Source: an uncultured Alphaproteobacteria bacterium
GTDB lineage: Bacteria > Pseudomonadota > Alphaproteobacteria > Caulobacterales > Hyphomonadaceae
Direction: 5' to 3'
Assembly: GCA_903831255.1 (NCBI GenBank)
Contig: CAIKWZ010000041.1
Coordinates: 1-64,000 of the forward strand
DNA length: 64,000 bases
The notes below the pieces were generated by a model. The model worked only from the letters and a program-made list of their open reading frames with translations. It made no database searches and was not told where the DNA came from. Positions 19,938 through 64,000 of this stretch are shown here, in pieces. The position numbers were made by a program, and so were the translations under genes. Numbering within the stretch: the first letter of the stretch is position 1; every line of letters starts with the position of its first letter.

Positions 19938-19952
19938 GAGGCAGGTGCGAAC

Positions 19953-20531
19953 ATGATCGACCGACGAGACCTGATCCGACGCGCGGCCTTCATTCTCGGC
20001 GGCAGTCTCTCTGCAGGCGCCATCGCCGGCGTGCTGTCAGGATGCGCTTCACTGCCCGAAGGTGAGGATGGCGCAAGCCGATATCTGACCGGAGATGAAA
20101 GACTGTCTGTCACAGCCCTGTGCGACCGGATTCTACCGCGGACAGATTCCCCTGGGGCGGTCGATGTCGGGGTTGTATCCTTCCTCGACCGGATGATGGC
20201 GGATTTTTACGGAGAGACGGAACGCTCAACGCTGCGAGCCGGGCTGGCCCGGGTGAATAACGAGGCTCTCAGCCAGCATGGACAGACCTTTCATCTCGTG
20301 TCGCCGGCGCAGCAGACTGCTCTCATGACAAGATATGATCAGGAGGCGACCGCCCAGAATCGGACCTCAGGGGCGCCCCTGCATTTCTTCCGTATCCTCA
20401 AGGAACTCACCACGCTTGGCTTTTTCACCTCGGAATACGGCGCCAGCCAGTTCCTCAGATATGATCCGACCCCGGGCCCTTACCGCGCAGACGTGCCCTA
20501 TTCGGATGTGGGACGAGCGTTCGTCACCTGA
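19953..20531 (+). CDS. Gluconate 2-dehydrogenase subunit 3-like small subunit
   Basis: The 192-residue protein has a Tat-like signal (DRRDLIRRAAF) and a hydrophobic stretch ending in SGCAS. The mature part shows the family's LTGDERLSVTALCDRILPRTDSPGAVDVGV opening and helical body. Such small subunits pair with a GMC flavoprotein, help it mature and provide its Tat export signal. It is 15 bases after the GMC gene, so the two form one complex and one transcript. Its last 34 bases overlap the 3' end of the convergent DUF1080 gene. Confidence 0.85.
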   Translation: MIDRRDLIRRAAFILGGSLSAGAIAGVLSGCASLPEGEDGASRYLTGDERLSVTALCDRILPRTDSPGAVDVGVVSFLDRMMADFYGETERSTLRAGLARVNNEALSQHGQTFHLVSPAQQTALMTRYDQEATAQNRTSGAPLHFFRILKELTTLGFFTSEYGASQFLRYDPTPGPYRADVPYSDVGRAFVT

Positions 20532-21355: not shown

Positions 21356-21543
21356 GCGCCTTCTCTCCAAAACATCCTATCCAGCGCTCAACGACCGATG
21401 GACAGGCCCCTAACAGACCGGCAATGTAGCGCCCGTTCGCATCAGGCAGCAATCGTTCGGACTTACGTCACGAACGGGATCTGCAGACAGCCGGAAAATC
21501 GCCCCCGACAAGATGGGGCGACAGCGCTTGGGGAGACAGACAG

Positions 21544-23076: not shown

Positions 23077-23120
23077 TTGCGAAATCCCAGCAACAAGCCT
23101 GTCCTGAAAGCGAGTGAGCC

Positions 23121-24080: not shown

Positions 24081-24100
24081 CTCTCCGGGCCAAGCACTCC

Positions 24101-25159: not shown

Positions 25160-26301
25160 GTGCGAAGCGACGCCTGAGACTGGGCATGGTCGGCGGCGGG
25201 GCAGGCGCCTTCATTGGCGCAGTCCACAGAATGGCTGCACGGCTTGATGACGCGTGGGAGCTCACAGCGGGCGCGTTTCAGTCCGATCCTGAAGCTTCGC
25301 GCGCCTTCGGCCTCGCACTGGGTCTGCCGGAGGAGCGATGCTATCCGAGTTTTCAGGTCATGGCTCAGGCTGAGGCCGGCCGAGCGGATCGCATCGACGC
25401 GGTCGCCATCTGCGCACCTAATCATGTTCACGCGCCTGCGGCCCGCGCCTTCCTTGAGGCGGGGACGCCGGTGATCTGCGACAAGCCGCTCGCGATTTCG
25501 AGGGAGGAGGCCGAGGCGCTGGAGGAACTGGTGAGGCGCACAGGCCTTCCGTTCATTCTCACGCACAATTATTCCGGCTATCCGATGGTGCGCGAAGCGC
25601 GACATCTCGTCAGCTCCGGGGCGCTGGGCGCCATACGTGTGGTGCAGGCTGAATACGCACAGGACTGGCTGAGCGTTCCCCTTGAGGACAATAAGCAGGC
25701 GCAGTGGCGAGGAGATCCCGCCAGGGCTGGCCCGGGCGGCGCGCTTGGAGACATTGCAACGCATGCGTTCCATCTCTGTGAATTCATCACCGGCCTTGAG
25801 ACACAAGAGGTCTCCGCAGAGCTCACGACATTTGTTCCGGGACGCCGCCTCGACGACAATGCGCAGATACTCCTGCGCTACAAGGACGGCGCCAGAGGGT
25901 CTATCTGGGCCAGCCAGGTCGCTGTCGGGGCTGCAAACGGTCTGCGGATCCGCATCTTCGGCGACCGGGCAGCGCTCGACTGGTCCCAGGAGACGCCTGA
26001 GGAGCTGAGAGTCTCTTCCCTTGGCGAGGCGCCGCGCATCCTTCGACGAGGAACCGGCGGCCTCTCCCAAGCGGCCATGAGGGCGACACGACTGCCAGCG
26101 GGTCATCCTGAGGGATATCTTGAAGGCTTCGCCCAGATCTATTCGGATGCTGCGGAGCTCGTTCGCGCCCACATGGAGCTGCGACCGCCGGATCCGCTTG
26201 CAGCTCTCGCTCCCTCGATCAGCGATGGCGTGCGAGGCGTTCGTTTCATTCATGCCTCTGTGGCCTCAAGCCGAGAGAGCAGCCAGTGGACGCGTGTATG
26301 A
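25156..26301 (+). CDS. Gfo/Idh/MocA family oxidoreductase
   Basis: The 381-residue protein has the Rossmann loop GMVGGGAGAFIGAVHR near residue 10, AICAPNHVHAPAA and VICDKP with Lys110 (family EKP motif). GALGDIATHAFHL supplies Asp199 and His203, the catalytic pair seen in inositol dehydrogenase-like enzymes. These NAD(P) enzymes interconvert a sugar hydroxyl and ketone, often at C3. Translational coupling to the barrel gene points to reduction of a 3-keto-sugar, or oxidation of a sugar, in the cytoplasm. The direction is not determined by sequence. Confidence 0.9.
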   Translation: MSAKRRLRLGMVGGGAGAFIGAVHRMAARLDDAWELTAGAFQSDPEASRAFGLALGLPEERCYPSFQVMAQAEAGRADRIDAVAICAPNHVHAPAARAFLEAGTPVICDKPLAISREEAEALEELVRRTGLPFILTHNYSGYPMVREARHLVSSGALGAIRVVQAEYAQDWLSVPLEDNKQAQWRGDPARAGPGGALGDIATHAFHLCEFITGLETQEVSAELTTFVPGRRLDDNAQILLRYKDGARGSIWASQVAVGAANGLRIRIFGDRAALDWSQETPEELRVSSLGEAPRILRRGTGGLSQAAMRATRLPAGHPEGYLEGFAQIYSDAAELVRAHMELRPPDPLAALAPSISDGVRGVRFIHASVASSRESSQWTRV

Positions 26302-26345
26302 CGACCCGGCTCCGACACCCCCGATGATCGCAAAGAGAGGACACC

Positions 26346-27089
<744 letters not shown>

Positions 27090-27096
27090 TCCCCCA

Positions 27097-27792
27097 TCAG
27101 CCTGAAACGAGGGTCAGTCCCATGGCTTCAACTGCGCTGCGAAGATGAGACATGGCCTCTGAGCTCGGCCCTTCATAGGGGCCGGAAGCCGGGCGATTCC
27201 CTGGATAGCCGATCTCCTTCCAGCCTTCAGCTGTGGTGTAGTAGGCCCCGATGGTCAGAGCGCGCATACGAGAGAAAAATCGCCCCGCTGTTTCCAGCTC
27301 GGGCGGGATCCGGTCCTTGAACGCGACCCGATCGAGGATGCCGCGCCGAACCTCAGGGCTCGCCTCGGCAAAGGACGGCTCGCCACCTTTTCGGGCCTCG
27401 TTATCCAGCCAGGCGAGGCCTGGAAGGATGAGCCCGCGCTGCTCCTGCTGAGAGGGATAAGGCGCACTCACCCACTCATCGATAAACAGCGGCACCCCCG
27501 CCGCGCTTGCCGAGGGCCAGTCCCCATCGGCGGGAAGGATCAGATCAACCAGCGCGCCGACCGTCTTCAGCTCGGCGGCCGTCAGGGTCAGCGGCCAGGG
27601 CGTTTTGGGATCCAGCAAGTCGGGGTCGGTCCCGTATCCCTTCCCCGTCAAAGCCTCCGGGGGCGACCAGGAAAACTCGCCTCCCAGCTCTCCGCACGCA
27701 GCCAGCTGACCAGCGGCAAGGCCCGCGAACAGCCAGCGAAGCGTTGTGCGTCGATCGACGATGGGCAGGCGTCTTATCAGAGTGTGCTTCAT
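27097..27792 (-). CDS. Gluconate 2-dehydrogenase subunit 3-like small subunit (second copy)
   Basis: The 231-residue product begins with VDRRTTLRW, a Tat-type pair of arginines, and a lipobox-like LAACG. The mature domain shows LTAAELKTVGALVDLILPADGDWPSAS and a helical body ending in SHLRSAVEAMG. It starts 9 bases after the stop of the GMC gene at 27802 and should be its partner. It is longer than the first copy at 19953 and clearly diverged from it, so the two complexes probably differ in substrate. Confidence 0.85.
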   Translation of the reverse strand: MKHTLIRRLPIVDRRTTLRWLFAGLAAGQLAACGELGGEFSWSPPEALTGKGYGTDPDLLDPKTPWPLTLTAAELKTVGALVDLILPADGDWPSASAAGVPLFIDEWVSAPYPSQQEQRGLILPGLAWLDNEARKGGEPSFAEASPEVRRGILDRVAFKDRIPPELETAGRFFSRMRALTIGAYYTTAEGWKEIGYPGNRPASGPYEGPSSEAMSHLRSAVEAMGLTLVSG

Positions 27793-27801
27793 CGCCCTCT
27801 C

Positions 27802-29490
27802 CTAGAGTTCGCCCATGCGCAGACGGTCCGCAATATGATCAGCCGAACGCATGGCCAGCGCCATAATGGTCAAGGTGGGATTTTTATGCGCCTTCGAGGC
27901 GAAGACCGACCCGTCGGTCAGATAAAGATTGTCCACATCCCAGGTTCGATTGAACCCGTCGACGACTGACGCGGACGCCTTCGCGCCCATACGCGCGGTC
28001 CCGACTTCATGAATGATTTCTCCACCGACAGAGATCGCCTTGTCCGGCGAGGGGACGTCTCCGAGGATGGTCCCGCCCAGTCGATCGACCAGGTCACGCA
28101 TGGCGCTCTGAAAATGAGCGACCTGTTTCAGTTCATGCTCAGACCAGCCGAAGGAGAATTTCAATACCGGAATGCCGTGGCGGTCTTTAAGGTCAGGATC
28201 GATCGTACAGAACGACTTCTCGTTCGGGATCATCTCGCCGCGCTGGGTCAGTCCGATCTGAGCCCCATAGCGCCCCCGCACCGCCCGACGCAGGTCCGAA
28301 CCATACCCGTCGAGATCGCCGTATCCTCCCAGACCCGGCTCACGAAATCCCCCGCCGATCTCCACGTGATAGCCGCGCGGAAAATCCAGCCGTCCCGCCG
28401 CCTGTTCTCGATAAAGCCAGAAGGGAATGTAAGCGTGCAGCCCCATCGCGCCATCCTCGTTATAAACGGGACGACCTTCGAGGGCGGGGAAATACGCTGA
28501 GATATTGGAGCCGACCGTATCCATCAGGTTACGTCCGAGCTGACCGCTGGAATTGGCAAGGCCCTCGGAACGTCCATTGGGCTGCGAATTCAGGAGAATG
28601 CGCGCCGTCTCTCCCGTACTTGCCGCGAGGATCACCACCCGACCGCGGGCCTCCCGATGAGCTCCGGTCGCCTTGTCGATATAGCGAACGCCCGAGGCCT
28701 TGCCGCTGGCGTCGAGCATCACTTCATAGACCATCGCTCCGGTCTGAACTGTGAGCTTGCCTGTCGCTTTCGCCCACGGGATGAGAGAGGTCGTGGTCTG
28801 GAAGGCTGCGCCGATCGCGCAACCCCGACCACAGGGAGACGCCCAGTAACAAGCCTCCCGTTCATCGATCTTGCGGGTCAGGATCGCTCGTCGGGCCGGG
28901 ACGACGGGAACGCCTAGCGCGTCCCCTCCCGCCTTGAGAAAAAGCTCCCAGACCCGCATCGCCGGCGGCGGCTGGAGAACGCCCGGACCAGAGTCCGGAT
29001 GATTCTCGAGGCCCAGATTGGCGCCATAGACGCCGACAATTCGTTCTGTACGATCATACCATGGCGAGATGTCCTCGTAGGAGATCGGCCAGTCCACCCC
29101 CAGACCATCGCGCGTGTAGGGCTTGAAGTCATAAGGCCCCATACGAAAGGAGTTGCGTCCCCAGTGATTGGTCCGGCCGCCAAGCATCCGGCTTCGAAAC
29201 CACATGAAGTCCGAGCCCTCAGCTTTCGAATAGGGCTCATCCGGCACTTCCCAGCCGCCGTCGACAATGGCGTCATAAAACCCAAAGGGCTTGTCGGGCG
29301 TCCCCGTTCCCCTCAGCGGAGCATCTCTCGATAGATTGAGCATCGGCGCTTCGTCAGGACTGTAATCCCGACCGGCTTCCAGCATGAGCACGCTCGCGCC
29401 GGCCTTGGTCAGAACGTACGCGGCCATCGCGCCGCCCGCGCCTGATCCAACAACAACCGCATCATACGGTTCTGTCGTCTGATCGACCAT
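27802..29490 (-). CDS. GMC-family flavoprotein, probable glycoside/sugar dehydrogenase large subunit (second copy)
   Basis: The 562-residue flavoprotein has VVGSGAGGAMAAY (14-26), the family block RMLGGRTNHWGR, and probable catalytic His494 (IIHEVGTARMG) and Asn537 (HKNPTLTI). Cys214, Cys220 and Cys224 again make C-x5-C-x3-C, exactly the spacing of the copy at 18204, although the residues between them differ. The start follows GGAGGGCTG. It is transcribed toward the DUF1080/MFS operon and with its small subunit. Electrons would go to a cytochrome not encoded beside it; the cytochrome domain at 14347 is one candidate. Confidence 0.86.
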   Translation of the reverse strand: MVDQTTEPYDAVVVGSGAGGAMAAYVLTKAGASVLMLEAGRDYSPDEAPMLNLSRDAPLRGTGTPDKPFGFYDAIVDGGWEVPDEPYSKAEGSDFMWFRSRMLGGRTNHWGRNSFRMGPYDFKPYTRDGLGVDWPISYEDISPWYDRTERIVGVYGANLGLENHPDSGPGVLQPPPAMRVWELFLKAGGDALGVPVVPARRAILTRKIDEREACYWASPCGRGCAIGAAFQTTTSLIPWAKATGKLTVQTGAMVYEVMLDASGKASGVRYIDKATGAHREARGRVVILAASTGETARILLNSQPNGRSEGLANSSGQLGRNLMDTVGSNISAYFPALEGRPVYNEDGAMGLHAYIPFWLYREQAAGRLDFPRGYHVEIGGGFREPGLGGYGDLDGYGSDLRRAVRGRYGAQIGLTQRGEMIPNEKSFCTIDPDLKDRHGIPVLKFSFGWSEHELKQVAHFQSAMRDLVDRLGGTILGDVPSPDKAISVGGEIIHEVGTARMGAKASASVVDGFNRTWDVDNLYLTDGSVFASKAHKNPTLTIMALAMRSADHIADRLRMGEL

Positions 29491-35870: not shown

Positions 35871-36155
35871 ATGACGAGCCTTGAGAGAGACATCGTCTTT
35901 TCCGCTCTGACGCGGCCCCAGATGTTCGCCGGCGTGAGCTATTCCTTCTTCGTCCTCAACCTGGTCGCGACCACTGAAATCTTCCTTATCACCAAATCCT
36001 TCTGGGCGATTCTGGCCGCTCTGGCGCTCCATGCGGCGGGCTATGTCATGTCATTGCGAGAGCCTCGCTTCCTCGATCTGTGGATTCTCAAGGTGAGCCG
36101 CTGTCCGAGGGTTCCAAACTATCATCACTGGCGCTGCAACTCCTACGCTCCATGA
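35871..36155 (+). CDS. virB3: VirB3-type inner-membrane protein
   Basis: This 94-residue protein shows the VirB3 pattern: SALTRPQMFAGVSYSFF, two hydrophobic segments, then EPRFLDLWILKVSRCP and the ending NYHHWRCNSYAP, closely similar to VirB3 C-termini. It helps VirB4 assemble at the membrane. Its stop overlaps the virB4 start. Confidence 0.86.
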   Translation: MTSLERDIVFSALTRPQMFAGVSYSFFVLNLVATTEIFLITKSFWAILAALALHAAGYVMSLREPRFLDLWILKVSRCPRVPNYHHWRCNSYAP

Positions 36156-38536
36156 CAGCCCGGAACCTGCCCCGTCAGGGTCGCGAGACGACCGCCCGCT
36201 TTCTCAGACGTGAGCGCCTGGCGCGGGACATGCTGCCCTATGCGCGCCTGATCGATGAGGCGACACTCGAGACACGGGACGGGCAGCAGATCCAGATCAT
36301 TCATCTGACTGGCTTCGCCTTCGAAACCGCCGATACCCAGGACCTCAATTATCGGAAGTCCATCCGCGACACGCTGTTGAGAAGTCTCGCTTCATCACGC
36401 CTTGAGATCGGAGCCTATCTGGTTCGTCATCTTGTCAGGCCAGACACACCCGCCGGATTTCTGAACCCCTTCGCCCGCCGCCTCGACGAGATATGGCGCG
36501 CCCGCCTTCAGGACCGACGCCTGTTCGTCAACGATCTGTTCATAACGCTGGCCAGACGCCCCGGTCTCACCAGGGGGAAGACGCTCGGCTTTGGGCGTAA
36601 TCAGACCTGGGACGCCGTGGGACGCGCCCGCGACCGACGCGACCTCGACGCCGCCCGGGATAATCTGATGGCGAGCCTCGCATCCTATGGGCCGCGGCTT
36701 CTCAGCGCCTATGAGGCGGGGGGAGAGACATTCTCGGAGCCGCTCGAGTTTCTCGCCTTTCTGTCTGATGGCGAACTTCGGGCTGTTCGCAAGCCTGCCG
36801 GAGATCCGGGGCGGAGCGTCATCGATCGGCGGATCAGCTTCGGACGTGACGCCCTTGAATTCAGCGCCAACGATCGAAGTACGGCCCAACTTGGCGCCGT
36901 CGTGTCGATCCGGGAATATCCGCCTCACTCGGCGCCCGGCCAGCTCGATGCGCTGATGCGGGCTCCACATGAGATGGTCATCTCGCAAAGCTTTGCCTTC
37001 GTTGACCGACAGACCGCCCTCAACCGTATCAACCTGTCGATCCGCCGCATGCGCGCGGCAGACGATGAGGCGTTATCGCTCCGACGCGACCTCATCCAGG
37101 CGAAGGATGATGTCGCCGCCGGACGAGCCGCCTTCGGCCATCACCACCTCACCGTTCTGATCAAGGCGGCGGATTTCGAGGCCCTCGACGCTGCGACCGC
37201 AGATGTTCAGGCCGCGCTGACCGATGCAGGCGCAATCGGCGTTCGCGAGGATATCGCCCTTGAGGCGTCCTACTGGGCCCAGTTCCCGGGGAACTCCGCC
37301 TTCATTCCCCGCCGGGCCCTGCTCTCCTCGGGCAACTTTGCAAGCCTTGCGAGCCTCCACAACCATCCCGTTGGCCGGCCGGAGGGCAATCACTGGGGCG
37401 GCGCGGTATGCGTTCTCGAGACCACAGCGGCCTCGCCCTATTATTTCAACTTCCATGCGGGGGACCTGGGGAACTTTCTCCTTATCGGGCCATCAGGATC
37501 CGGAAAGACCGTGATCCTCAACTTTCTTCTCGCCCAGGCTCAGCGCTTCGATCCGAAGGTCGTCTTCTTCGACAAGGACAGAGGCGCGGATATCTTCCTG
37601 CGCGCCATGGGGGGACAATATGAGGTTATCCGACCCGGAGTGGCCACTCAGTTCAATCCGCTGCAGTTGCCTGACACGCCCTCCAACCGCCGCTTTCTTC
37701 AACAATGGACTGCGAAGCTGACCACGTCGAATGGCGAAGTTCTGACAGCTGAGGATGTGGCGCTCATCGCCTCCGCCGTCAGCGCAAATTATGATCAGGA
37801 CATCTCGTTCCGTCGCCTGAGATACTTCCGCGAACTCTTTCTCGGCGGCCGGCGCCCGACGCCTGGCGACCTCGCCTCGCGATTATCGCCCTGGCTCGGC
37901 GAGGGCGATCGCGCATGGCTGTTCGACAATGAAGTCGACCGGATGGATCTTGAGGCCCGGATCTGCGGGTTCGACATGACCCATCTTCTGGACGATCCTG
38001 TTCTCAGGACCCCGGCGATGATGTATCTCTTCCACCGCGTTGAGGAACGCCTCAACGGGCAGCCCTCAATCATCGTGGTGGACGAAGGCTGGAAGGCGCT
38101 GGATGACGAGGTCTTTGTGGCGCGTATCCGCGACTGGGAGAAGACTATCCGCAAACGCAATGGAATCGTTGGATTTGCGACCCAGTCTGCGGGTGATGCG
38201 CTCGAAAGCCGGATCGCCAATGCCGTTATCGAGCAGTCCGCCACCCAGATATTTCTCCCCAATCCGAAAGCTCAGGAGCGCGAGTACCGGCAGGGGTTTG
38301 GACTCTCGGCGCACGAGTTCGATCTGATCCGCTCTCTTCCTGATACATCCCGCTGTTTTCTTATCCGACACGGAACCGAGAGCGTGGTTGCGCGCCTCAA
38401 CCTGAACGGACAGCGAGATGTCCTGACGGTGCTGTCCGGGCGCGAGCGAACGGTAAGGCTGCTTGATCGTATCCGTGCTGAGGTCGGTGACGATCCGGAG
38501 ACCTGGCTCCCACGCCTTCTTGAGGAGGCGCGCTGA
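36152..38536 (+). CDS. virB4: VirB4-type secretion ATPase
   Basis: The 794-residue ATPase has a Walker A motif (GPSGSGKT) near residue 447, DKDRGADIFLRAMGGQY shortly after, and a Walker B (IIVVDEGWKAL) near residue 640. IFLPNPKAQEREYRQGFGL near the C-terminus is typical. VirB4 energises pilus assembly and substrate transfer at the inner membrane. The ATG at 36152 overlaps the virB3 stop, which decides it over the longer frame. The stop overlaps the virB6 start by one base, leaving no room for virB5. Confidence 0.93.
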   Translation: MTARNLPRQGRETTARFLRRERLARDMLPYARLIDEATLETRDGQQIQIIHLTGFAFETADTQDLNYRKSIRDTLLRSLASSRLEIGAYLVRHLVRPDTPAGFLNPFARRLDEIWRARLQDRRLFVNDLFITLARRPGLTRGKTLGFGRNQTWDAVGRARDRRDLDAARDNLMASLASYGPRLLSAYEAGGETFSEPLEFLAFLSDGELRAVRKPAGDPGRSVIDRRISFGRDALEFSANDRSTAQLGAVVSIREYPPHSAPGQLDALMRAPHEMVISQSFAFVDRQTALNRINLSIRRMRAADDEALSLRRDLIQAKDDVAAGRAAFGHHHLTVLIKAADFEALDAATADVQAALTDAGAIGVREDIALEASYWAQFPGNSAFIPRRALLSSGNFASLASLHNHPVGRPEGNHWGGAVCVLETTAASPYYFNFHAGDLGNFLLIGPSGSGKTVILNFLLAQAQRFDPKVVFFDKDRGADIFLRAMGGQYEVIRPGVATQFNPLQLPDTPSNRRFLQQWTAKLTTSNGEVLTAEDVALIASAVSANYDQDISFRRLRYFRELFLGGRRPTPGDLASRLSPWLGEGDRAWLFDNEVDRMDLEARICGFDMTHLLDDPVLRTPAMMYLFHRVEERLNGQPSIIVVDEGWKALDDEVFVARIRDWEKTIRKRNGIVGFATQSAGDALESRIANAVIEQSATQIFLPNPKAQEREYRQGFGLSAHEFDLIRSLPDTSRCFLIRHGTESVVARLNLNGQRDVLTVLSGRERTVRLLDRIRAEVGDDPETWLPRLLEEAR

Positions 38537-39693
38537 TGGCGATCTGTCCCTCTCCGTCCGGCGAGAGCATGGTTGGCGGCATCGTCCACACAGTCGACTG
38601 CCATATCCGGGTCCTCGTTCACGACAGCTATCGCGAGCTGGTGGGGCCCGACACATGGTTTTCAGCGGCCTTCACGGGCCTGCTCACCATCTATATCGCC
38701 CTGCTCGGATACCAGCTTCTCTTCGGTCGCGGAGGCGTGCGTGTGACAGAGCTCCCGTTCACCGCCGTCAAGATCGGCCTGATCCTGGCCTTCCTCACCA
38801 GCTGGGCCGCCTATCAGACAGTTATCTTCAATCTTCTGTTTGAGGGGCCCGCCGACCTGATGCGCACACTTCTGCGACCACTTCAGATGCAGGGGTCGGG
38901 GTTTGATGGAGACGTGATGGCGGGCCTTGAGCGCGCCTTCGACGACATGAGCGAAGCGGCGGGCGCCTATGGGGAGATGGCGAGCCCAACGGCCAACATT
39001 CTGCAAGGCGGTCCGATGCTGGGGTCAGGCCTGCTCTGGCTGTCGTCCATCTCGCTGCTTCTTGTGACGCTGGGGGTCATTGTCGCCGCCAAGATCGTCC
39101 TCGCCTTCCTTCTGGCAATCGGACCGGTGTTCATTGGCTTTCTGCTGTTTGATGCGACAAGGGGGCTCTTCGAGGGCTGGCTCAGGGCGACGTTCAGCTT
39201 TTCGATGGCGCCCATGGCGGTGACGGTCTTCGGCGCCTCCCTCATCATGATCCTTCAGCCCTTTCTTGAGATCCTGACCGAAAACGCTCAGATGAGACTG
39301 TTCGATATGGGGGTGGTGATCACGATCAGCCTCGTGATCGCAGTGTTCGCGATCGTGATGATGTTCGGACTGAGCGCAGTCGGGGGCATCGCCAGCGGCC
39401 TGCGTTTGGAAGCGTCGCGTCGACCCGAAGTTCCTCAATCCGCCCGCGGAGACATGTACGACAGCCAGGGCGGATCGGCCTTCAGCGATCGAGCCGAACA
39501 GATCGCGGCCCGGATCGCGATCCTTGACCGCCAGGCGGGAGGGCCTGCGCAGAGCGCCTATCTTGAACGTGAGATACGTGCTCACGACCGAGGCGGCGCG
39601 GGAGAGACCCCAGCCATGTCTCCAGAGGGGCGCCTCGGGGAGGCCTATCGGCGTATCCCCCGGGCAGGATTTGATCGCAGAGTCGGGTCATGA
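38536..39693 (+). CDS. virB6: VirB6-type polytopic channel protein
   Basis: The 385-residue protein has about six hydrophobic segments, including FTGLLTIYIALLGYQLLFG, VKIGLILAFLTSWAAY and IVLAFLLAIGPVFIGFLLF, followed by a polar C-terminal tail of about 95 residues. LFDATRGLFEGWLR matches the conserved TrbL/VirB6 core. It forms the inner-membrane part of the transfer channel. The ATG shares one base with the virB4 stop. Confidence 0.88.
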   Translation: MAICPSPSGESMVGGIVHTVDCHIRVLVHDSYRELVGPDTWFSAAFTGLLTIYIALLGYQLLFGRGGVRVTELPFTAVKIGLILAFLTSWAAYQTVIFNLLFEGPADLMRTLLRPLQMQGSGFDGDVMAGLERAFDDMSEAAGAYGEMASPTANILQGGPMLGSGLLWLSSISLLLVTLGVIVAAKIVLAFLLAIGPVFIGFLLFDATRGLFEGWLRATFSFSMAPMAVTVFGASLIMILQPFLEILTENAQMRLFDMGVVITISLVIAVFAIVMMFGLSAVGGIASGLRLEASRRPEVPQSARGDMYDSQGGSAFSDRAEQIAARIAILDRQAGGPAQSAYLEREIRAHDRGGAGETPAMSPEGRLGEAYRRIPRAGFDRRVGS

Positions 39694-40562
39694 CGGCTCA
39701 GGAGCGCACGCAGATCGCCGCCTCGGCGACACGTCTTCCCGCCAGCGCATCGCCTTCGGAAGAGGACAGGAACGCTCTGGCGGCGGAAATCTGGCGCGAC
39801 GAGGCTCTGGCTTCCGCAAGGAGCGGACGGCGCGTCGCCTGGATCGTCGCATCCATAATGATCATCGTATGCGCAGCCCAGGCTGCAGGCCTTGCCATTC
39901 TCCTGCCCCTTAAAGAAGTCGTTCCCTACACCGTTCTGGTTGATCGCCAGACGGGGTATGTCGAGACGACGCGGGGCGTGCGCCTCGGCGACCTCGATGA
40001 CGAGCAGGCCGTCATCCATTCGATGCTGGCCCAGTACGTCCTGGCGCGGGAAACCTTCGATCCGGCCGATTTTGCGGAACGATATGCACGAACTGCGCTC
40101 TGGTCGCTCGGTCCTGCGAGAGCGGAGTATGTCGAGCAGTATCGGGAGGGATCCTCCGCCAGCATCCTCGGCGACCTCAGACCCGGGAGCGTCATCCGTA
40201 TCTCCATTTCCGCCATCGACATTCTCTCCAAGGATACGGCTGAGGTCCGTTTTGAGGCGACGCGCAGGGATTCGGGTCTTGAGGCCTCCGCTGCGACCTG
40301 GCGAGCGGTGGTGTCGTTTCGCTTCACCGGCGCGCCGATGAGAATGGAGGACCGCCTCCTTAATCCCCTCGGATTTCAGGTCATGGCCTACAGGAAGGAC
40401 AGATTGTCGCCTCCGGAAGTGATGTCAGCGGTCAACGATGGAGCCGGTTCTCAGGAATCCCCCACCTCCCCCCTTGCGCAGACGCCTGGGATGGGGATCG
40501 ATAGCTCTTCGCCGCCCCCAGGCGCACAGCCGACCCTGACAGAGGAGGCCCGAACGCCATGA
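39690..40562 (+). CDS. virB8: VirB8-type bitopic protein
   Basis: The 290-residue protein has one transmembrane helix (VAWIVASIMIIVCAAQAAGLAI, about residues 48-70) and a periplasmic NTF2-like domain, ending with the family NPLGFQVMAYRKD motif. A Pro/Ser-rich tail of about 45 residues follows. VirB8 links inner-membrane and core parts of the machine. Its start overlaps the virB6 stop by four bases. Confidence 0.9.
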   Translation: MTAQERTQIAASATRLPASASPSEEDRNALAAEIWRDEALASARSGRRVAWIVASIMIIVCAAQAAGLAILLPLKEVVPYTVLVDRQTGYVETTRGVRLGDLDDEQAVIHSMLAQYVLARETFDPADFAERYARTALWSLGPARAEYVEQYREGSSASILGDLRPGSVIRISISAIDILSKDTAEVRFEATRRDSGLEASAATWRAVVSFRFTGAPMRMEDRLLNPLGFQVMAYRKDRLSPPEVMSAVNDGAGSQESPTSPLAQTPGMGIDSSSPPPGAQPTLTEEARTP

Positions 40563-41365
40563 TCGCCCGCCCTATCCTCTGCCTGCTGTTCGCCACCGCC
40601 GCCGCCGGAGCCAGCCTTGCCCAGGCCCCGGTCTCACCCGCGCCAGGCCCCGGCGACCCTCGCATTCGCGAGCTTTTGTACGATCCCAATCAGGTGATCG
40701 ATATCAAGGGATATCTCGGATTTGAGATGGCGATCGAGTTCGACCCCGAAGAGCGGATCGAAACGGTGTCGATCGGCGACAGCCTCTCCTGGCAGGTGAC
40801 CCCGAACCGGAAGGCGACCCTGCTGTTTCTAAAGCCCATGGCTGTGGGCGGAACAACCAGCATGACAGTCGCCACGAGCAAGAGGCTTTATAGCTTCCTG
40901 CTCACAGCAGCCGAAGCTTCGAGACGCGCCCCTCCGCCAATGCTGCGCCTCCGACTTCTCTACCCGGCGCCTCCTGAGCCAGCGAACGAAGCTCCTCCGC
41001 TGTCGCCGCCGGCTCCGCCGACGCCTGAACAACTCAATTTCCGCTATGCCTTCAAAGGCGCCAAGGCGATCCATCCGGTGAGGGTCTTCGACGACGGCGT
41101 TTCGACATATTTCGAGTTTGTCAGCGACAAGGACACCCCTGCTGTCTTTGTGATTGGTTCAGACGGTAAGGAGGAAATGGCCTCCACCCGCATCGCGGGT
41201 CGCTTTACGGTCGCCGATATACGCGCCGAGCGCTTCGTTCTTCGATACGGCAAGGCGAAGGTCGATGTTCTCAACTCCGGCTGGAGCGTTGCCCCGGCGG
41301 CTGCGCCAGCCACGCCAACCGCTTCAGGATCAGGCGCCACTTCATCCACAGGGGCCGACCAATGA
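40559..41365 (+). CDS. virB9: VirB9-type outer-membrane core protein
   Basis: The 268-residue product has a signal peptide ending LAQA. The N-terminal domain has DPNQVIDIKGYLGFEMAIEF, and the C-terminal beta domain has NFRYAFKGAKAIHPVRVFDDGVSTYFEF. This matches VirB9/TrbG proteins of the outer-membrane core ring. It has no lipobox, so it does not itself replace the missing VirB7 lipoprotein. The last 25 residues are Ala/Thr/Ser-rich. Start and stop overlap both neighbours. Confidence 0.9.
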   Translation: MIARPILCLLFATAAAGASLAQAPVSPAPGPGDPRIRELLYDPNQVIDIKGYLGFEMAIEFDPEERIETVSIGDSLSWQVTPNRKATLLFLKPMAVGGTTSMTVATSKRLYSFLLTAAEASRRAPPPMLRLRLLYPAPPEPANEAPPLSPPAPPTPEQLNFRYAFKGAKAIHPVRVFDDGVSTYFEFVSDKDTPAVFVIGSDGKEEMASTRIAGRFTVADIRAERFVLRYGKAKVDVLNSGWSVAPAAAPATPTASGSGATSSTGADQ

Positions 41366-42546
41366 GCCCCCCTCCCTCGTCCTCATCGGGCAGGCCCCGT
41401 GCAGGAATGAACGAACCGCTCCCACGTGTCGGCATGGCGAGCTCGCCCTGGCCGGTAGTCGCCGGGCTTCTCGGCGCCCTTACCCTCGGCGCCCTGATCT
41501 TCATCCAGCTGTCCGCCAATCGCGCGCGTATTGAAGCGGCCCGGCTGACGGACCCAGCCCCAGGAGCCGCGCCGCTGTCAGCGGAGGATGTCCCCCCGCC
41601 GCCGGACCTGTCGGCCTTCTCCCAAACGCCCCTGGCTCCGCCGGCGCCAACGCCTGAGGACGCCGCCGAAGCGCCAGCGCCAGCTGCTGCGGCAACATCG
41701 CCTCCCCCTCCGGCCCCAGGCCCCACTCAGGCCGAGCTCGAACGCCTGAGGGCTCCGGCGCTGATCATCGATCTGGGAGAGTTCAGAGCGGAGGGCGCGC
41801 CGGAGCGAACGACGCCGTCAGGGGGGCCGAGCGCTGCAGCGATCACCGCAGCTGTCGGAGCTTCTCAGGCGCCGGTCGCCGGGGGCACGCCCGGGGCCGA
41901 CGCCGATGAGCGGTTCGCTCGTCGTCTTGGCCTCGGCGAAGCAGGCAAACCCGCGCAGGCGGTCTCGATGGTCAATCTCTCAACCACGGTCGTCGAAGGA
42001 TCGATCATTCCCGCCGTGCTTGAAACGGCCCTTAATTCCGACCTGCCCGGTTATGTCAGGGCGGTGGTCAGTCGGGATGTCCGGGGCTTCGACGGTGCGG
42101 CCGTGCTCGTCCCGCGAGGTAGCCGGCTGATTGGGCAGTACCGATCGGGCATCGCGTTAGGCCAATCGCGGACCTTTGTGATCTGGACGCGACTGATCCG
42201 ACCAGACGGGGCGAGCGTCCCGCTCGCCTCACCGGCCACCGATGCGCTGGGACGCGGCGGTCTCGACGGAGATGTCGACCGACATTTTCTCCAGCGTTTC
42301 GGCGGCGCGATGCTGCTGACTCTTCTGAATCTCGGCGTCAGCGCAGCTACGGAAGCGTCCGACACAAGCATTGTTATCGCTTCGACACGCGCAGGCGCCG
42401 ATTCGGTCGGGGTCGCCCTCTCCAAGGACCTCGACATCTCGCCCACAGTGAACGTTCCTCAGGGATCTCCTGTGCGTGTCTTCGTGTCTCAGGACCTGGA
42501 CTTCTCGACGGTCGGACCTGCGCCGGTCCAGGAGACCAATCGGTGA
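41362..42546 (+). CDS. virB10: VirB10-type core protein
   Basis: The 394-residue protein has a short cytoplasmic tail, one transmembrane helix (VVAGLLGALTLGALIFIQL), a long Pro/Ala-rich periplasmic linker and the VirB10 beta-barrel domain. The barrel shows EGSIIPAVLETALNSDLPGYVRAVVSRDV, LVPRGSRLIGQYRSG and VIWTRLIRPDGASV. VirB10 spans both membranes and gates the core channel. The stop overlaps the GTG of virB11. Confidence 0.93.
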   Translation: MSPPPSSSSGRPRAGMNEPLPRVGMASSPWPVVAGLLGALTLGALIFIQLSANRARIEAARLTDPAPGAAPLSAEDVPPPPDLSAFSQTPLAPPAPTPEDAAEAPAPAAAATSPPPPAPGPTQAELERLRAPALIIDLGEFRAEGAPERTTPSGGPSAAAITAAVGASQAPVAGGTPGADADERFARRLGLGEAGKPAQAVSMVNLSTTVVEGSIIPAVLETALNSDLPGYVRAVVSRDVRGFDGAAVLVPRGSRLIGQYRSGIALGQSRTFVIWTRLIRPDGASVPLASPATDALGRGGLDGDVDRHFLQRFGGAMLLTLLNLGVSAATEASDTSIVIASTRAGADSVGVALSKDLDISPTVNVPQGSPVRVFVSQDLDFSTVGPAPVQETNR

Positions 42547-43526
42547 ACGGGGGTGGGGTTTATCTCAGGACCTATATGGCTCCGCTCTCGCCCTGGCTCG
42601 ACAGGGGCGACATTACGGACATCATGGTCAACAGACCCGGAGAGGTCTGGATCGAAAACGCCTCCGGCGTCGAACGCATCGAGGCGCCTGCGATCACGGA
42701 GCTGATGCTTCAGCGTCTCGCCCAGCAGATTGCAGCATCATCCAGTCAGGGCGTCAGCCGGGAACATCCGCTTCTGGCCGCCACCCTTCCCGACGGGGCG
42801 CGCGTTCAGCTGGCAGGGCCGCCGGCGACACGCGGGGCCATCGCTCTTGCGATCCGGAAGCATGTCGTTCCAGATCTGACGCTCGAGGACTACGAAGCGG
42901 CAGGGGCGTTTAATCCAGTCGACCGCGCGCTAGAGCCGTCTCGTTGCGATATCGACGCCCGTCTGGATGAGCTTCTTCAGGCAGGAGATCTAAGAGCGTT
43001 CTTCGCCCTGGCGGTCAGAGCGCGCCGAAACATCGTGATTTCCGGAGGAACAGCGTCCGGCAAGACCACGTTTCTCAACGCGCTGCTCAAAGAAACGCCT
43101 GACACAGACCGTATCATCGTGATTGAAGACACGGCGGAGATTTCCCTTACTCAGCCCAATTCCGTCGGACTTGTCGCTGTTAAGAGCGAGCTTGGCGAAT
43201 CCCAGGTCGGCGTCGACGACCTCCTTCGCGCCTCCCTCCGAATGAGACCCGACCGCCTCCTGGTTGGAGAAATCCGTGGGGCTGAAGCCTTCACCTTCCT
43301 GCGCGCCGTCAACACGGGACATCCCGGTTCCTTCACGACTGTGCATGCGGACAGCCCAGAAGGGGCGCTCGAGCAGATCGCCTTCATGAGCCTGCAGAGC
43401 GGGCTCAGCCTGACGCGGTCGGATATTCGCGACTATGCGCGTTCCGTCCTCGACATCGTCGTCCAGCTGACGCGCACGAATGGGCGGCGAATGGTCGAAC
43501 GTGTGGTGATCAATCGCCGAGCCTGA
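42543..43526 (+). CDS. virB11: VirB11-type secretion ATPase
   Basis: The 327-residue hexameric ATPase has Walker A GGTASGKTT (168-176), an Asp box (IVIEDTAEI), LRMRPDRLLVGEIRGAEAFTFLRAVNTGHPG and TTVHADSPEGAL. The GTG start is fixed by a four-base overlap with the virB10 stop. It drives pilus and translocation steps with VirB4. It is the last gene of the operon: 31 bases later a convergent gene ends. No virD4 coupling protein follows. Confidence 0.93.
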   Translation: MNGGGVYLRTYMAPLSPWLDRGDITDIMVNRPGEVWIENASGVERIEAPAITELMLQRLAQQIAASSSQGVSREHPLLAATLPDGARVQLAGPPATRGAIALAIRKHVVPDLTLEDYEAAGAFNPVDRALEPSRCDIDARLDELLQAGDLRAFFALAVRARRNIVISGGTASGKTTFLNALLKETPDTDRIIVIEDTAEISLTQPNSVGLVAVKSELGESQVGVDDLLRASLRMRPDRLLVGEIRGAEAFTFLRAVNTGHPGSFTTVHADSPEGALEQIAFMSLQSGLSLTRSDIRDYARSVLDIVVQLTRTNGRRMVERVVINRRA

Positions 43527-54965: not shown

Positions 54966-56378
54966 CTAAACTGGGGCTGACTGAGCCAGAGCCTCGGCCA
55001 CACCCGGATAGGAGGGCTGATCGATCAGGCACTGGGCCAGAACGCTGCTGCGAAGAAGGCGCCTGAGGGCGGGATCGTCGAGATCCACGCTGCGATCGGC
55101 GATCCGGCGACAGAGATCGCCTCGCATATCCTCTAGCTCGCCGCTGCCACCCAGGATCGTCTCAAGGGCCCTCCCCTCCTCTTCCCTCGCCGCAGGTCCC
55201 TGAAGGAGTTCGCGCATCACGGTGTCGATAGAATTCGCTCCGACCCGGGCGAGGAAAAGAGTGCGCTCATTTTGGTCCGAACCGATCTCGTGTCGCAAAA
55301 AGTCCCGCACCGAACGCAGAAGCTCCTGCGTGCCCGGCAGGCTGGTCGTCGACAGAGTGCGAGAGACCGCGGGAGGCGGCGTTGCAGGACCTGGAATCAA
55401 CATGTTTACGCAATCGATCTGACATTCCGAGCTTCGCCGCCCGATAGCGGGTCGTTCAAGGCTCGTCTCGGCGCCCGCTCTGTAAGACTGCGCCATCTGA
55501 AGACATCCGACCGACCACCAGAACGAGCCGAAGACCTCCCAGAAGCGAACCGAGAGCGGATCGACACGAACGCCCGAGACAGCTTCATAACCCTCGAAGA
55601 GATCCTGATACCGCCCAAAGCCCCCCACCGGGAGTTCATTGACCCCAAACCGCCAGGAGCGAGTGCAGAGCCAGCCCAGATCCCGCATCGGATCTCCGAC
55701 ATGGGCGAGCTCCCAGTCCAGCACCGCACGAATGCCTTCACCCGCATCGACGATGAAATTTCCACACCTGAAGTCTCCGTGAACCAGCGTCGTGCGGCTC
55801 TCAGCAGGGAGGTGCTCGAGCAGCCAGCGCGCCGTGAACTCGATCATGGGCTGGTGCGATCCGAGCTCCCGATAGGATGTCAGCGTGCGCCAGACGGCCT
55901 CTTCCGGGGTCATGTGAGGAAGCGCACCCGAAAGCCCCTCCTCCTCGATGTCGATCGCATGCAGATGCGCGAGAATTTCGCCGCAGGCCCGCGCCATACC
56001 GGATCGAACACTGGCGAACTCGGGCCTGCGCACGATGCGCGCCCCGATCGTCTCCCCAGAAATCCAGTCCATGAGAAAGCCGGCGCCCAAACCATCTTCA
56101 GGGATCAGACCCATTCGGACGTCAGGACCCTGAACGCCGGCGCGTCGAGCGGCCGCGATCAGCGTCGCCTCCAGGGCGATCGACGCCCCCTCGCTCACGG
56201 CGGATCCCCCGTCCCCGGGAGCCCGGCGAAGTGCCAGAGATCTCTCACGTCCATCCACAACAGCCTCGATGCGGTAGGTTTCCCGGCTTGCCCCGCCCGT
56301 GAGCCTCGTCCAGCGGCCAAGACTCTCAAAACCCCCAAGACCCCGGCGCAAGGCTGCTTCGAGCTGAGCCCTCTCCAT
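54966..56378 (-). CDS. Phosphotransferase (APH-like) fused to DUF6285-like domain
   Basis: The 470-residue product has two parts. Residues about 20-330 are an aminoglycoside-phosphotransferase-like kinase of the ACAD10/11 group, with TLVHGDFRCGNFIVDAGEG (catalytic Asp) and LDWELAHVGDPMRDLGWL (metal Asp). Residues about 350-470 are helical and resemble DUF6285, which is often a separate small gene beside such kinases. These kinases phosphorylate 4-hydroxyacyl-CoA-type substrates before dehydration, which fits the adjacent dehydrogenase. The ATG at 56378 follows GAGGAG; GTG at 56384, overlapping the previous stop, is the alternative. Confidence 0.85.
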   Translation of the reverse strand: MERAQLEAALRRGLGGFESLGRWTRLTGGASRETYRIEAVVDGRERSLALRRAPGDGGSAVSEGASIALEATLIAAARRAGVQGPDVRMGLIPEDGLGAGFLMDWISGETIGARIVRRPEFASVRSGMARACGEILAHLHAIDIEEEGLSGALPHMTPEEAVWRTLTSYRELGSHQPMIEFTARWLLEHLPAESRTTLVHGDFRCGNFIVDAGEGIRAVLDWELAHVGDPMRDLGWLCTRSWRFGVNELPVGGFGRYQDLFEGYEAVSGVRVDPLSVRFWEVFGSFWWSVGCLQMAQSYRAGAETSLERPAIGRRSSECQIDCVNMLIPGPATPPPAVSRTLSTTSLPGTQELLRSVRDFLRHEIGSDQNERTLFLARVGANSIDTVMRELLQGPAAREEEGRALETILGGSGELEDMRGDLCRRIADRSVDLDDPALRRLLRSSVLAQCLIDQPSYPGVAEALAQSAPV

Positions 56379-56380
56379 GC

Positions 56381-57649
56381 TCACTCCTCGACCCCCTTCG
56401 GAGCGCGCTGGCTCATGAAGCCGAAGAGATAGCCCGCAACTCGCCGCATCTGGATTTCTTCCGCGCCCTCGGTGATGCGATACCGCCGATGGTGACGATA
56501 GATGTGCTCGAAGGGCTTGTGTCGCGAATAGCCCAGACCGCCATGAACCTGCATCGCCCGATCCGCCGCCTCGCAGCAGAGACGATTGCCCCAGTAATTA
56601 CACATCGAAACCTTGTCCGAGACGGAGAACGCGCCGTCACGGTCCATGAGCCAGGCCGTCTTGTGGATCAGCGTGCGCAGCATCTCGCACTGCGTCTGCA
56701 GCTCCACCAGGGGGAACTGAATCGCCTGGTTTGAAGCCAGCGGTTTGCCGAAGGGCTTACGTTCGCGGGCGTAAGCAATAGCCTCGTTAATGCAATACTG
56801 CGCCGCTCCGAGGCTGGAGGCCGCCTGCCGGATCCGGTTCTCATTGAAGAAATGCTGGACAACCTGCAGACCCCGGCCTTCGCCTCCGAAGACTGCAGCA
56901 TGAGGGACGCGAACATCACTGAGCGTTACATGCGCATGATCCGTCGGCATGTTGAACGTCCAGAGATAAGTCTCGATCCGGAAGCCCGGCGCATCAATAG
57001 GAACCAGAAAGGCGGTGATGCCGCCGCCGTCGCCAGCCTTGCCTCCGGTCCGCGCAAAGATGAGATCGTGACTTGCCGTATGGACGCCGGTATTCCAGGT
57101 CTTCTCGCCAGTTATGATCCAGTCGTCCCCGTCACGAACTGCGCGGGTCTCCATATGTGTGGCGTCCGATCCATGGGCCGGCTCGGTGATGCCGAAACCG
57201 AAATGCCGTTGTCCGGTGACGAGGTCCTCCAGCCAGTCCTGCTTCTGCTCAGGCGTGCCGTAGGCCCACATGAGCATGGCGCCCACGGTATTGCCGACAA
57301 TTGAATGCTCATTCTGAAGATCGTTATGGAGGCCGAGGCCCCGCGCGGCGAAATGCTCACGTATGACCGCCATAGCAAGGTTCCCGCCAGCGCGTCCTCC
57401 AAGCTCCCTCGGAAGCGCAAAGCGATAATGGCCAGCCGCGTCCGCTCGTCGTCGGGCCTCCGACAGGAGCGCCTCCCACTCAGGCCGCGGAAGCCCACCC
57501 TTGTCCCAGTCGGTTCGCGCATGCTCGCGGCGATGGTCGAAGAAGCGGATATTGTCGTCCGCCTCCTCGAGCGGCCGGATCTCAGCCTCTATAAAGCGGT
57601 CCAGGATCCTGAGATATTCGGCCAGATCCGGTGGCAGATCGAAATCCAT
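56381..57649 (-). CDS. Acyl-CoA dehydrogenase, ACAD10/11-like group
   Basis: The 422-residue enzyme has FGFGITEPAHGSDATHMETRA, WIITGEKTWNTGVHTASHD, ERKPFGKPLASNQAIQFPLVELQ and MQVHGGLGYSRHKPFEHIYRHHRRYRITEGAEEIQMRRVAGYL. The EGAEEIQ end block and the kinase gene coupled to it match the ACAD10/11-type association, which handles 4-hydroxy acids. It probably acts in the same route as the kinase at 54966. The next gene upstream, an RND pump, ends 93 bases before its start. Confidence 0.9.
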   Translation of the reverse strand: MDFDLPPDLAEYLRILDRFIEAEIRPLEEADDNIRFFDHRREHARTDWDKGGLPRPEWEALLSEARRRADAAGHYRFALPRELGGRAGGNLAMAVIREHFAARGLGLHNDLQNEHSIVGNTVGAMLMWAYGTPEQKQDWLEDLVTGQRHFGFGITEPAHGSDATHMETRAVRDGDDWIITGEKTWNTGVHTASHDLIFARTGGKAGDGGGITAFLVPIDAPGFRIETYLWTFNMPTDHAHVTLSDVRVPHAAVFGGEGRGLQVVQHFFNENRIRQAASSLGAAQYCINEAIAYARERKPFGKPLASNQAIQFPLVELQTQCEMLRTLIHKTAWLMDRDGAFSVSDKVSMCNYWGNRLCCEAADRAMQVHGGLGYSRHKPFEHIYRHHRRYRITEGAEEIQMRRVAGYLFGFMSQRAPKGVEE

Positions 57650-61952: not shown

Positions 61953-62534
61953 GTGAGCGATGACGTCAGAACGGCCATCCTGAAGGCGAGCCTTGAGCTC
62001 ATCGACGAAAACGGACTTCGCGCCTTCAGCATGCGCGAAGCGGCGCGGCGCGCCCATGTCAGTCATCAGGCCCCTTATCACTACTTTCCGGACCGGGAGA
62101 GCATTCTCGCCGAACTCGTCAGGAACGGGTTCGAGCAGCTGCACACCTACATGAGCGCAGGCTCAACTCCAGCCGATACCGCGGCGGAGCGTCTTGAGAG
62201 GATGGGGGAGGCGTATATCCGGTTCGCGATCGAACATCGCGCGCTCTTCCGGCTCATGTTCCGGGACGAGATGGTTGATATCGGTCACCATCCCGAAGCG
62301 AAGGCTGCGGCTGATCGCAGCTTTCACCTCCTTGTTGAAGCCGTGGTCGGCCCCAGCCCATCGGGAGAGATCGCTGACCCGGCTCCGATCCTCGCCGTCT
62401 GGTCGATCGCCCACGGCCTCGCTTCACTGGAGCTCGAAGGCAAGCTGCAGCATCTTTTCGGGGAGAGAACTCCGCAGGAATGGAAGCAGATCTTCAGCGA
62501 GGTGGTGAGGACTGTCATTCCGGCCAGAGGCTGA
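61953..62534 (+). CDS. TetR family transcriptional regulator
   Basis: The 193-residue protein has the TetR N-terminal HTH (AILKASLELIDENGLRAFSMREAARRAHVSHQAPYHYFPDRESILAEL), followed by a helical ligand domain with FAIEHRALFRLMFRDEM and a C-terminal VWSIAHGLASLELEG. The GTG start is chosen because it lies immediately after the operators and gives the usual distance to the HTH. It should repress the divergent RND operon and itself, released by a pump substrate. Confidence 0.9.
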   Translation: MSDDVRTAILKASLELIDENGLRAFSMREAARRAHVSHQAPYHYFPDRESILAELVRNGFEQLHTYMSAGSTPADTAAERLERMGEAYIRFAIEHRALFRLMFRDEMVDIGHHPEAKAAADRSFHLLVEAVVGPSPSGEIADPAPILAVWSIAHGLASLELEGKLQHLFGERTPQEWKQIFSEVVRTVIPARG

Positions 62535-62630: not shown

Positions 62631-63344
62631 TCAGCACCATGCCCCCGAGATCGGTATGACCTGACCGGACACAAAGCCCGAACGGCCGAGTGCGAGAAGC
62701 TCGATGACCGAGGCCACCTCCTCGGCCTCCCCCAGCCGTCCCATCGGCACACGGGCCAGAAGTTTAGGCCCCTTCACAGGATCCTCGAGAAGGGCACGCG
62801 GATAATAAGTCTCCGTCTGGATGAAGTTCGGAGCCACAGCGTTCACCGACACCCCGTCCGGCGCCAGCTCGAGAGCGAGCGTTCTGACCGCGCCGTTCAC
62901 CGCCGATCGCGCAGCCGCATAGGCGGCGAAACCGGGAATGCCGCCGATCGGGCCCGAAGATGTTCCAAATACAATCCGGCCTGATTTCGCCCGCCGCATA
63001 TGGATAGCCGCAGCCGAAGCAAAGAGGAGGGACTGGATGGCGATCCGACTGAAATAGGCCTCGAGCACATCCGCGCTGAGGTCCTCAACCGGGGTCCGCG
63101 GCGCCGGCATGGCCGGCGAGATCACGATCGCATCCAGACGTCCTCCAAGACGATCGACAGCGCTCTCAACGATTCGAGCCGGATCCGACCAGGCCACCAG
63201 GTGGAGCCCCTCCTCGGGCATCTCCGTGTCAACCGACGGATCGGCGCCAACGACATCCGCCCCAGCTTCCATGAGACGACGGGCAATCACGGGATTGGCG
63301 AACCCCCGCACATCGGTGACCAGAACGCCCTTGCGCTCGCCCAT
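62631..63344 (-). CDS. SDR-fold protein with halohydrin-dehalogenase-like signature
   Basis: The 237-residue protein is of short-chain dehydrogenase fold but departs from it twice. The cofactor loop TGxxxGxG is replaced by TDVRGFAN (Thr10, Phe15, Asn17), and the catalytic YxxxK is YAAAR. Ser129, Tyr142 and Arg146 fit S-x12-Y-x3-R, the triad of halohydrin dehalogenases, which also replace the glycine loop by T-x4-F-x-G. The last position here is Asn, so the match is partial. The C-terminal AVAPNFIQTETYYP and SGQVIPISG fit the same fold. ATG at 63344 follows AGAGGAAG. It may dehalogenate or open epoxides, or be an inactive SDR. It lies next to an acyl-CoA synthetase. Confidence 0.75.
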   Translation of the reverse strand: MGERKGVLVTDVRGFANPVIARRLMEAGADVVGADPSVDTEMPEEGLHLVAWSDPARIVESAVDRLGGRLDAIVISPAMPAPRTPVEDLSADVLEAYFSRIAIQSLLFASAAAIHMRRAKSGRIVFGTSSGPIGGIPGFAAYAAARSAVNGAVRTLALELAPDGVSVNAVAPNFIQTETYYPRALLEDPVKGPKLLARVPMGRLGEAEEVASVIELLALGRSGFVSGQVIPISGAWC

Positions 63345-63405: not shown

Positions 63406-64000
63406 TCAGGCGGTCGTCTCCTCGACAAGCCCTAGCTCCGCCATCATGGCCTTGCGGATTTCGAACTTCTGCACCTTGCCTGTCACCGTCATGGGAAAGG
63501 CCTCCACAAATCTCACATAGCGCGGGATCTTGTAGTGAGCGATGCGGCCCCTGCAGAACTCGATGATCTCCTGCTCGGTTGCGCTCTCACCACCACGAAG
63601 ACGTATCCAGGCGCAGAGCTCCTCGCCATATTTCCGATCGGGCACACCGACAACCTGAACGTCCTCCACCTTGGGATGACGGAAGAGATACTCCTCAACT
63701 TCGCGAGGATAGATGTTCTCCCCTCCCCGGATCACCATGTCCTTGATGCGGCCAACAATGTTGCCATAGCCTTCGTCATCGAGAACGGCCAGATCTCCGG
63801 TATGCATCCACCCTTCGCTGTCGACCGCCTCTCCGGTCTTCTCGGGATCGTCCCAATATCCAAGCATCACGGAATACCCCCGCGTGCATAGCTCGCCAGG
63901 AACTCCTCGCGGAACGGTCTCTCCGTCAGGTCCTGCAATCCTGACCTCAAGATGAGGCTGAACCCGGCCGACCGTCGAGACCCGCCGGTCTATGGGATCA
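63406..64000 (-). CDS. Acyl-CoA synthetase, C-terminal part (runs off window)
   Basis: The 3' part of an AMP-dependent synthetase reads to the window edge without a stop. It shows [80 protein letters not shown] and [14 protein letters not shown], whose Lys is the adenylation residue. The pattern fits fatty-acyl or medium-chain acyl-CoA ligases. The start lies beyond 64000. It is 61 bases upstream of the SDR gene and probably co-transcribed with it. Confidence 0.9.

Follow-up and report, generated by a model that had tools for sequence, protein, structure and literature searches.

What chemistry should be expected of a protein that carries the catalytic triad of the halohydrin dehalogenases (HHDHs) but ends its first loop in asparagine, where the published motif has glycine? 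HHDHs serve as biocatalysts, and other physiological functions of these enzymes cannot be excluded according to PMC4989007. A literature search for halohydrin dehalogenase together with Hyphomonas found no report, and among 15 of the 704 papers matched by a further search none dealt with HHDH function. The question is raised by a gene of an uncultured member of the Hyphomonadaceae (contig CAIKWZ010000041.1), lying near the end of the 64,000-nucleotide stretch analysed here, which we call the window. A preliminary description had recognized at positions 62631-63344 an SDR with Ser129-x12-Tyr142-x3-Arg146 and T-x4-F-x-N; coordinates and residues proved right, and the gene lies on the minus strand (Table 1). 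Its ATG is at position 63344 and its stop codon ends at 62631. By eye, a GAGGAAG-like ribosome site lies just 5' of this ATG, and methionine occupies the same start column in 8 of the 14 aligned sequences of the clade to which the protein belongs, the other 6 being truncated where their matches end.

Table 1. Features of the window discussed in the text, with strand and basis of assignment
Feature	Positions	Strand	Basis
Haloalkane dehalogenase family gene	6303-7202	(-)	NF002043 above cutoff
Haloalkane dehalogenase family gene	8329-9240	(-)	NF002043 above cutoff
TetR-family regulator, convergent, downstream	61953-62534	(+)	related gene adjoins in 10/12 clade loci
HHDH-like gene, 237 aa (P0001)	62631-63344	(-)	ORF, translation, orthologues
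Nucleophile/halide loop A171-P-N173-F-I-Q-T-E-T-Y180-Y-P182	62799-62834	(-)	alignment
Motif 2, S129-x12-Y142-x3-R146 (catalytic triad)	62907-62960	(-)	translation, alignment
V74-I-S76-P77-A-M-P-A-P-R83, place of HheC Asn79-Asp80 (SDR NNAG motif)	63096-63125	(-)	alignment
Motif 1 region, T10-D-V-R-G-F15-A-N17	63294-63317	(-)	translation, alignments
Fatty acid-CoA ligase family gene, upstream, runs to contig position 65133	63406-64000	(-)	NF009233

Pfam and NCBIfam name the window protein merely as a member of the SDR superfamily, with NCBIfam scores far under every cutoff among the 25 matches listed, and this naming is what speaks for a degenerate-loop variant of the ordinary NAD(P)-dependent SDRs. 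We regard that explanation as very improbable. The classical SDR signature (T-G/A-x3-G/A-x-G together with Y-x3-K) is absent, none of the three glycines of the SDR loop T-G-x3-G-x-G is present (their places are taken by D11, F15 and N17), arginine replaces the catalytic lysine, the NNAG motif is lost, the sequence gives no sign of an intact NAD(P) pocket, and phylogenetic trees set the protein apart from SDRs. By the HHDH criteria set out in PMC4989007 and PMC11976700, motif 2 (S-x12-Y-x3-R) is present in 14/14 clade sequences and the glycine-rich NAD(P) loop is replaced, whereas motif 1 (T-x4-F/Y-x-G) ends in asparagine in 14/14 and retains its threonine in 13/14. The window loop 171-182 aligns with the segment of HheC that runs from G174-P175-N176-Y177-L178 to F186-Y-P. 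It had been proposed that the protein follows the HHDH criteria except for the last loop residue; motif 2 and the vanished glycine loop bear this out, but the exception is a weighty one: in HheC and HheG, alanine was the sole substitute for this glycine that left detectable activity (PMC11976700).

Neither an HHDH-type motif 1 nor S-x12-Y-x3-R occurs in any of 17 SDR paralogues of the same genome, 15 of which carry S-x12-Y-x3-K (these paralogues being weak matches). Similarly, among 68 SDR relatives of other genomes S-x12-Y-x3-R was found in none and S-x12-Y-x3-K in 59, and a T-x4-[FY]-x-[GN] loop was absent from the first 120 residues of all 68. Judging from these counts, the motif pair of the window gene is not a product of chance.

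In maximum-likelihood trees, built without L103 and covering HHDH subtypes A to D, a single branch divides the SDRs from the clade of the window protein, a locus termed L060, the class-wide loci and the six solved HHDH-type chains used. The latter, the HHDH side, is separated from 22 SDRs at 100/99, and likewise at 100/99 from 19 more varied SDRs, and the split stays at 100/99 after removal of the motif, NNAG and halide-loop columns. The trees thus group the window protein with HheA, HheB, HheC, HheD2 and HheD8, which supports its membership of the HHDH branch as against the ordinary SDRs compared. The 14 sequences with Asn17 form one group (100/99 with full columns, 100/97 without motif columns), which is joined by L060 at 100/96 and 100/92, respectively. 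Within the HHDH side, support for the deeper branches is mostly weak. If the clade is moved to the base of that side, the resulting tree scores 3.43 log units above the freely found one and is not rejected (p-AU 0.569), and nesting inside the known HHDH subtypes was set aside on these figures; without motif columns, the other 35 sequences of the HHDH side stand together at 94/90. The lineage may perhaps be the deepest branch on this side.

An AlphaFold2 monomer model computed from 31 aligned sequences (pLDDT 93.2, pTM 0.91) fits this placement. The first 12 Foldseek ranks are taken by entries of 6a41, HheA and HheC and rank 13 by FabG, while the top entries of HheG, HheD8 and HheD2 come at ranks 18, 23 and 25, under some FabG entries. 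VIA-align gives HHDHs or 6a41 at ranks 1-11, with 6a41 on top; Z is 29.5-31.5 for HHDHs and 29.2 and below for FabG-like SDRs, partly a tie, and with FabG-like SDRs just 0.3 Z under the last HHDH the fold is in line with the tree yet would be insufficient as a sole criterion. In a sequence search of solved chains the best match is 6a41 (E 2.9e-40), followed by HheD8 (2.8e-24), HheD2 (1.8e-23) and HheA (7.7e-21); FabG and other SDRs score only slightly lower. In keeping with a lineage of its own within the HHDH branch, the window protein is 25-37% identical to the solved HHDH-type chains.

The nearest solved relative, 6a41 ('dehalogenation enzyme'), is itself close to HheC (1pwx, E 2.6e-42) and almost identical to L142, which comes from a genome of the class; a literature text search on 6A41 found nothing. 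It shares the triad and fold of the window protein (36.8% identity over 231 columns; Z 31.5 and rmsd 1.9 over 235 residues of the model). However, 6a41 has the canonical T-N-V-E-K-F-A-G, where the window protein has asparagine for the final glycine, and Asn-Asp at HheC positions 79-80, where the window protein has Ser-Pro. HheA (4z9f, 29.7% identity; also 1zmo) and HheC (1pwx, 25.4%) share with it the threonine and phenylalanine of motif 1, the Ser-Tyr-Arg triad and the P-N-[FY] halide loop, but their Gly14 and Asn79-Asp80 are replaced in the window protein. HheD2 (7b73), HheD8 (8xxb) and HheB (4zd6), at 26-32% identity, share the triad and the motif-1 Thr and Phe/Tyr, and HheD2 further resembles it in the P-A-P that follows HheC position 82; unlike the window protein, all three retain the glycine and the asparagine.

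Two deviations therefore set the clade apart from its solved relatives, and the same holds for its wider kin. At HheC position 14, glycine is found in 41/41 other triad-bearing relatives and asparagine in 14/14 clade members; at HheC position 79, asparagine is found in 42/42 of these relatives and Ser, Ala or Cys in 14/14 clade members. The comparison set of 42 comprises 40 class-wide triad-bearing relatives together with L197 and L198 and holds near copies (e.g. L151, L153 and L155), so that these are not 42 independent cases; one member, L189, ends before motif 1, which leaves 41 letters at position 14. In the alignment, HheC position 79 falls on the second Asn of the motif known in SDRs as NNAG. 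In the SDR fold this segment lies against the glycine loop, and the two places would touch. Literature searches found nothing relevant on NNAG/glycine-loop packing and no report on HheC Asp80.

The order of the two changes is suggested by L060, from the alphaproteobacterial MAG RI_48, a sister lineage with 54.7% identity to the window protein and the same S-S-G-P-I-G-G-I-P-G-F and Q-T-E-T-Y-Y-P loops. L060 retains T-x4-F-x-G and has proline at HheC 79, where the clade has Ser, Ala or Cys. Since the sister has the canonical loop, the Gly-to-Asn change looks derived, and the ancestor of the lineage would have had the full HHDH motif. On the simplest order, Asn79 would have been lost first and glycine would then have given way to asparagine in the first loop.

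Mutagenesis bears on the second step. In PMC11976700, as far as its available text goes, the residues of motif 1 in HheC and in HheG were one by one replaced by other amino acids, and at the glycine alanine alone left detectable, though badly impaired, activity; few variants per position were soluble, so part of the activity loss may be folding. The same text cites an almost inactive SDR variant G14N, mentions natural motif-1 variation at the threonine only, and describes HheG G20A as having almost no activity other than with thiocyanate and bromide, an effect that HheC G14A lacks. This behaviour of HheG G20A indicates that the glycine position can steer the choice of nucleophile. A natural asparagine at so intolerant a site therefore implies either a compensating background or changed chemistry.

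The first of these alternatives corresponds to an ordinary new HHDH subtype, in which Asn17 is offset by the loss of the other asparagine and the enzyme, like other HHDHs, dehalogenates halohydrins and uses azide, cyanide or halide to open epoxides. Such a subtype is possible, though we doubt it. The triad and halide loop are complete, the fold is nearest to 6a41, HheC and HheA, and both changes occur on one lineage alone, the loss of Asn79 apparently being the earlier one (L060 has Pro79 and kept the glycine). Compensation between the two changes is nevertheless our own supposition, the invariance of the glycine among the other triad-bearing relatives speaks against it, and saturation of the site in two HHDHs (in the text of PMC11976700 at hand) points the same way. 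The earlier suggestion of a new HHDH subtype accordingly stands as regards the HHDH branch and a lineage of its own, but not as regards motif 1, where the published glycine is missing, and the second invariant asparagine is lost as well.

The conservation of the gene bears on whether it encodes an enzyme at all. It was found in 14 of the 15 genomes of its genus and in 15 of 105 genomes of the family (E 1e-25), the additional one belonging to another genus; the 11 clade records retrieved are all metagenome-assembled. The residues G14-F15-A16-N17, S129, Y142, R146, N173 and Y180-Y181-P182 are unchanged in the 14 aligned clade members (an alignment without L023, which is close to L024 and carries the same GFAN), and S129, Y142, R146, N173 and Y180 are invariant across 31 aligned sequences. 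With 10 of the 13 other clade sequences used, dN/dS is 0.069 against the nearest orthologue, which indicates purifying selection, and 0.08-0.22 against the nine others, where synonymous change is near saturation.

These data weigh on a non-enzymatic or regulatory role for a protein that kept fold and triad while its pocket became blocked. Asn17 does occupy a position where HheC and HheG accept almost no substitution (PMC11976700), and decay happens in the HHDH-like family, as relatives in the class have lost parts of the triad: L187, L191 and L192 lack the catalytic Tyr and/or Arg, and second copies in L182, L188 and L190 have Gln for Arg. We nevertheless consider this role unlikely, given the low dN/dS and a triad invariant in 14/14 clade sequences; a dead enzyme would not be expected to preserve its three catalytic residues together with the anion loop. 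The degenerate relatives are of interest in themselves. L187, L191 and L192 are HHDH-branch proteins that keep motif 1, while L182, L188 and L190, from three genomes that belong to a single genus of the class, hold tandem HHDH-like pairs, one copy with the full triad and the second with an altered loop besides its Gln, perhaps a pseudoenzyme partner. By eye, the motif-1 Gly is present in 6/6 and the NNAG Asn in 5/6 of these six degenerate copies.

HHDHs had been called rare, a description that does not suit this class, in which a triad-bearing relative occurs in 41 of 385 sampled genomes, the window gene included. The class-wide search gave matches at 50 places in 45 of these genomes: the window gene itself, 40 triad-bearing relatives, 3 without Tyr and/or Arg, 3 tandem second copies, one ordinary SDR (L195) and two halves in genome G662 that were left out. 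The first 29 of these relatives all carry S-x12-Y-x3-R, 28 with T-x4-[FYW]-x-G and one with Ser for Thr. A phylum-level search matched 4 of 398 genomes and was the source of L197 and L198. A plasmid-borne xenobiotic gene was also considered and is not favoured, given no match in 72,556 plasmid records (E 1e-18) and the presence of the gene in almost every genome of the genus.

Taken together, the predicted protein has the triad, the anion loop, a lost NAD(P) glycine loop, Asn17 and no asparagine at position 76. As its motif 1 falls outside the published criterion, it is not filed as a halohydrin dehalogenase; it is a predicted cofactor-free lineage of the HHDH branch with a rebuilt anion pocket, and its dehalogenase function is putative. 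The best explanation, on which our confidence is evenly balanced, is a cofactor-free enzyme that represents a separate deep lineage in the HHDH branch of the SDR fold and converts a vicinal beta-substituted alcohol into an epoxide and back. In this reaction type, the most likely one, Ser129 would hold the alcohol oxygen, Tyr142, tuned by Arg146, would take or give the proton, and the anion would leave into, or attack from, a pocket built from Phe15, residue 17 and the loop of residues 172-182. The rebuilt pocket floor would favour a non-chloride anion (larger, softer or hydrogen-bonding) or tolerate halides weakly. The departure from the published motif 1 and the intolerance of G14N or of the Gly site in the SDR, HheC and HheG count against this explanation. 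A bolder and more tentative version, possible in our view, is that a deep, genus-fixed lineage of the HHDH branch moved its pocket asparagine (lost at 79, gained at 14) and thereby changed its anion, serving a native, non-xenobiotic epoxide chemistry with a non-halide nucleophile.

Nothing in the neighbourhood points to a fixed pathway. The upstream fatty acid-CoA ligase gene (863 bits, cutoff 832) lies 61 nt from the HHDH-like gene, and this neighbour recurs in 2 of 12 clade loci, namely in the own genome and one close relative. Beyond the TetR gene follow genes for an RND pump and its adaptor, for an acyl-CoA dehydrogenase and for an APH-type kinase that carries DUF6285; in similarity clusters over the 12 clade loci the kinase family of the window is found in 9 and the pump family in 8, and this common neighbourhood may be plain shared ancestry. 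In distant relatives the neighbours mostly differ, while some near relatives have them in common (the HHDH-like gene was picked as an ORF in 26 of 28 stretches and missed in L161 and L170). An acyl-CoA dehydrogenase directly adjoins the HHDH-like gene in two other loci (L040 and L176), and a MAPEG-family gene lies two genes away in L060; assigning a function from these neighbours was considered and rejected, the loci being too few for a link. In L060 the HHDH-like gene stands between thrS and infC (L060:7851-11521). No gene for an epoxide hydrolase or another epoxide/halide enzyme was found among the part of the neighbours that was annotated.

Several other genes of the window deserve mention. 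The two haloalkane dehalogenase-like genes named in the preliminary description are real but lie more than 53 kb away and are unlinked to the HHDH-like gene; they flank a curcumin-reductase-like gene that scores below its cutoff (6303-9240). Positions 54966-57649 hold the APH-type kinase, with its C-terminal DUF6285, adjoining the acyl-CoA dehydrogenase, a pair that recalls the ACAD10/11 and Lva 4-hydroxy-acid systems (available parts of PMC12440821 and PMC11342911); since the pump genes and an opposite-strand TetR gene separate it from the HHDH-like gene, we do not build on this likeness. VirB4/TrbE-, TrbI- and T2SSE-family genes at 36080-43526 appear to belong to a type IV secretion cluster, the genes between them being judged by eye. 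Pfam identifies GMC oxidoreductase and 3-keto-disaccharide hydrolase domain genes at 18189-19937 and 20498-21370, and together with sugar isomerase-like genes (by eye) within 18189-29490 they perhaps form a keto-glycoside cluster.

The clade has naturally fixed a residue that saturation mutagenesis in HheC and HheG, in the available account, found inactive, and comparison of its members with the canonical-loop L060 offers a direct test of how the loop glycine sets the choice of anion. We also argue, from relatives found across the class and the retention of the gene through its genus, that HHDH-like genes can serve normal metabolism, and not the breakdown of man-made halohydrins.
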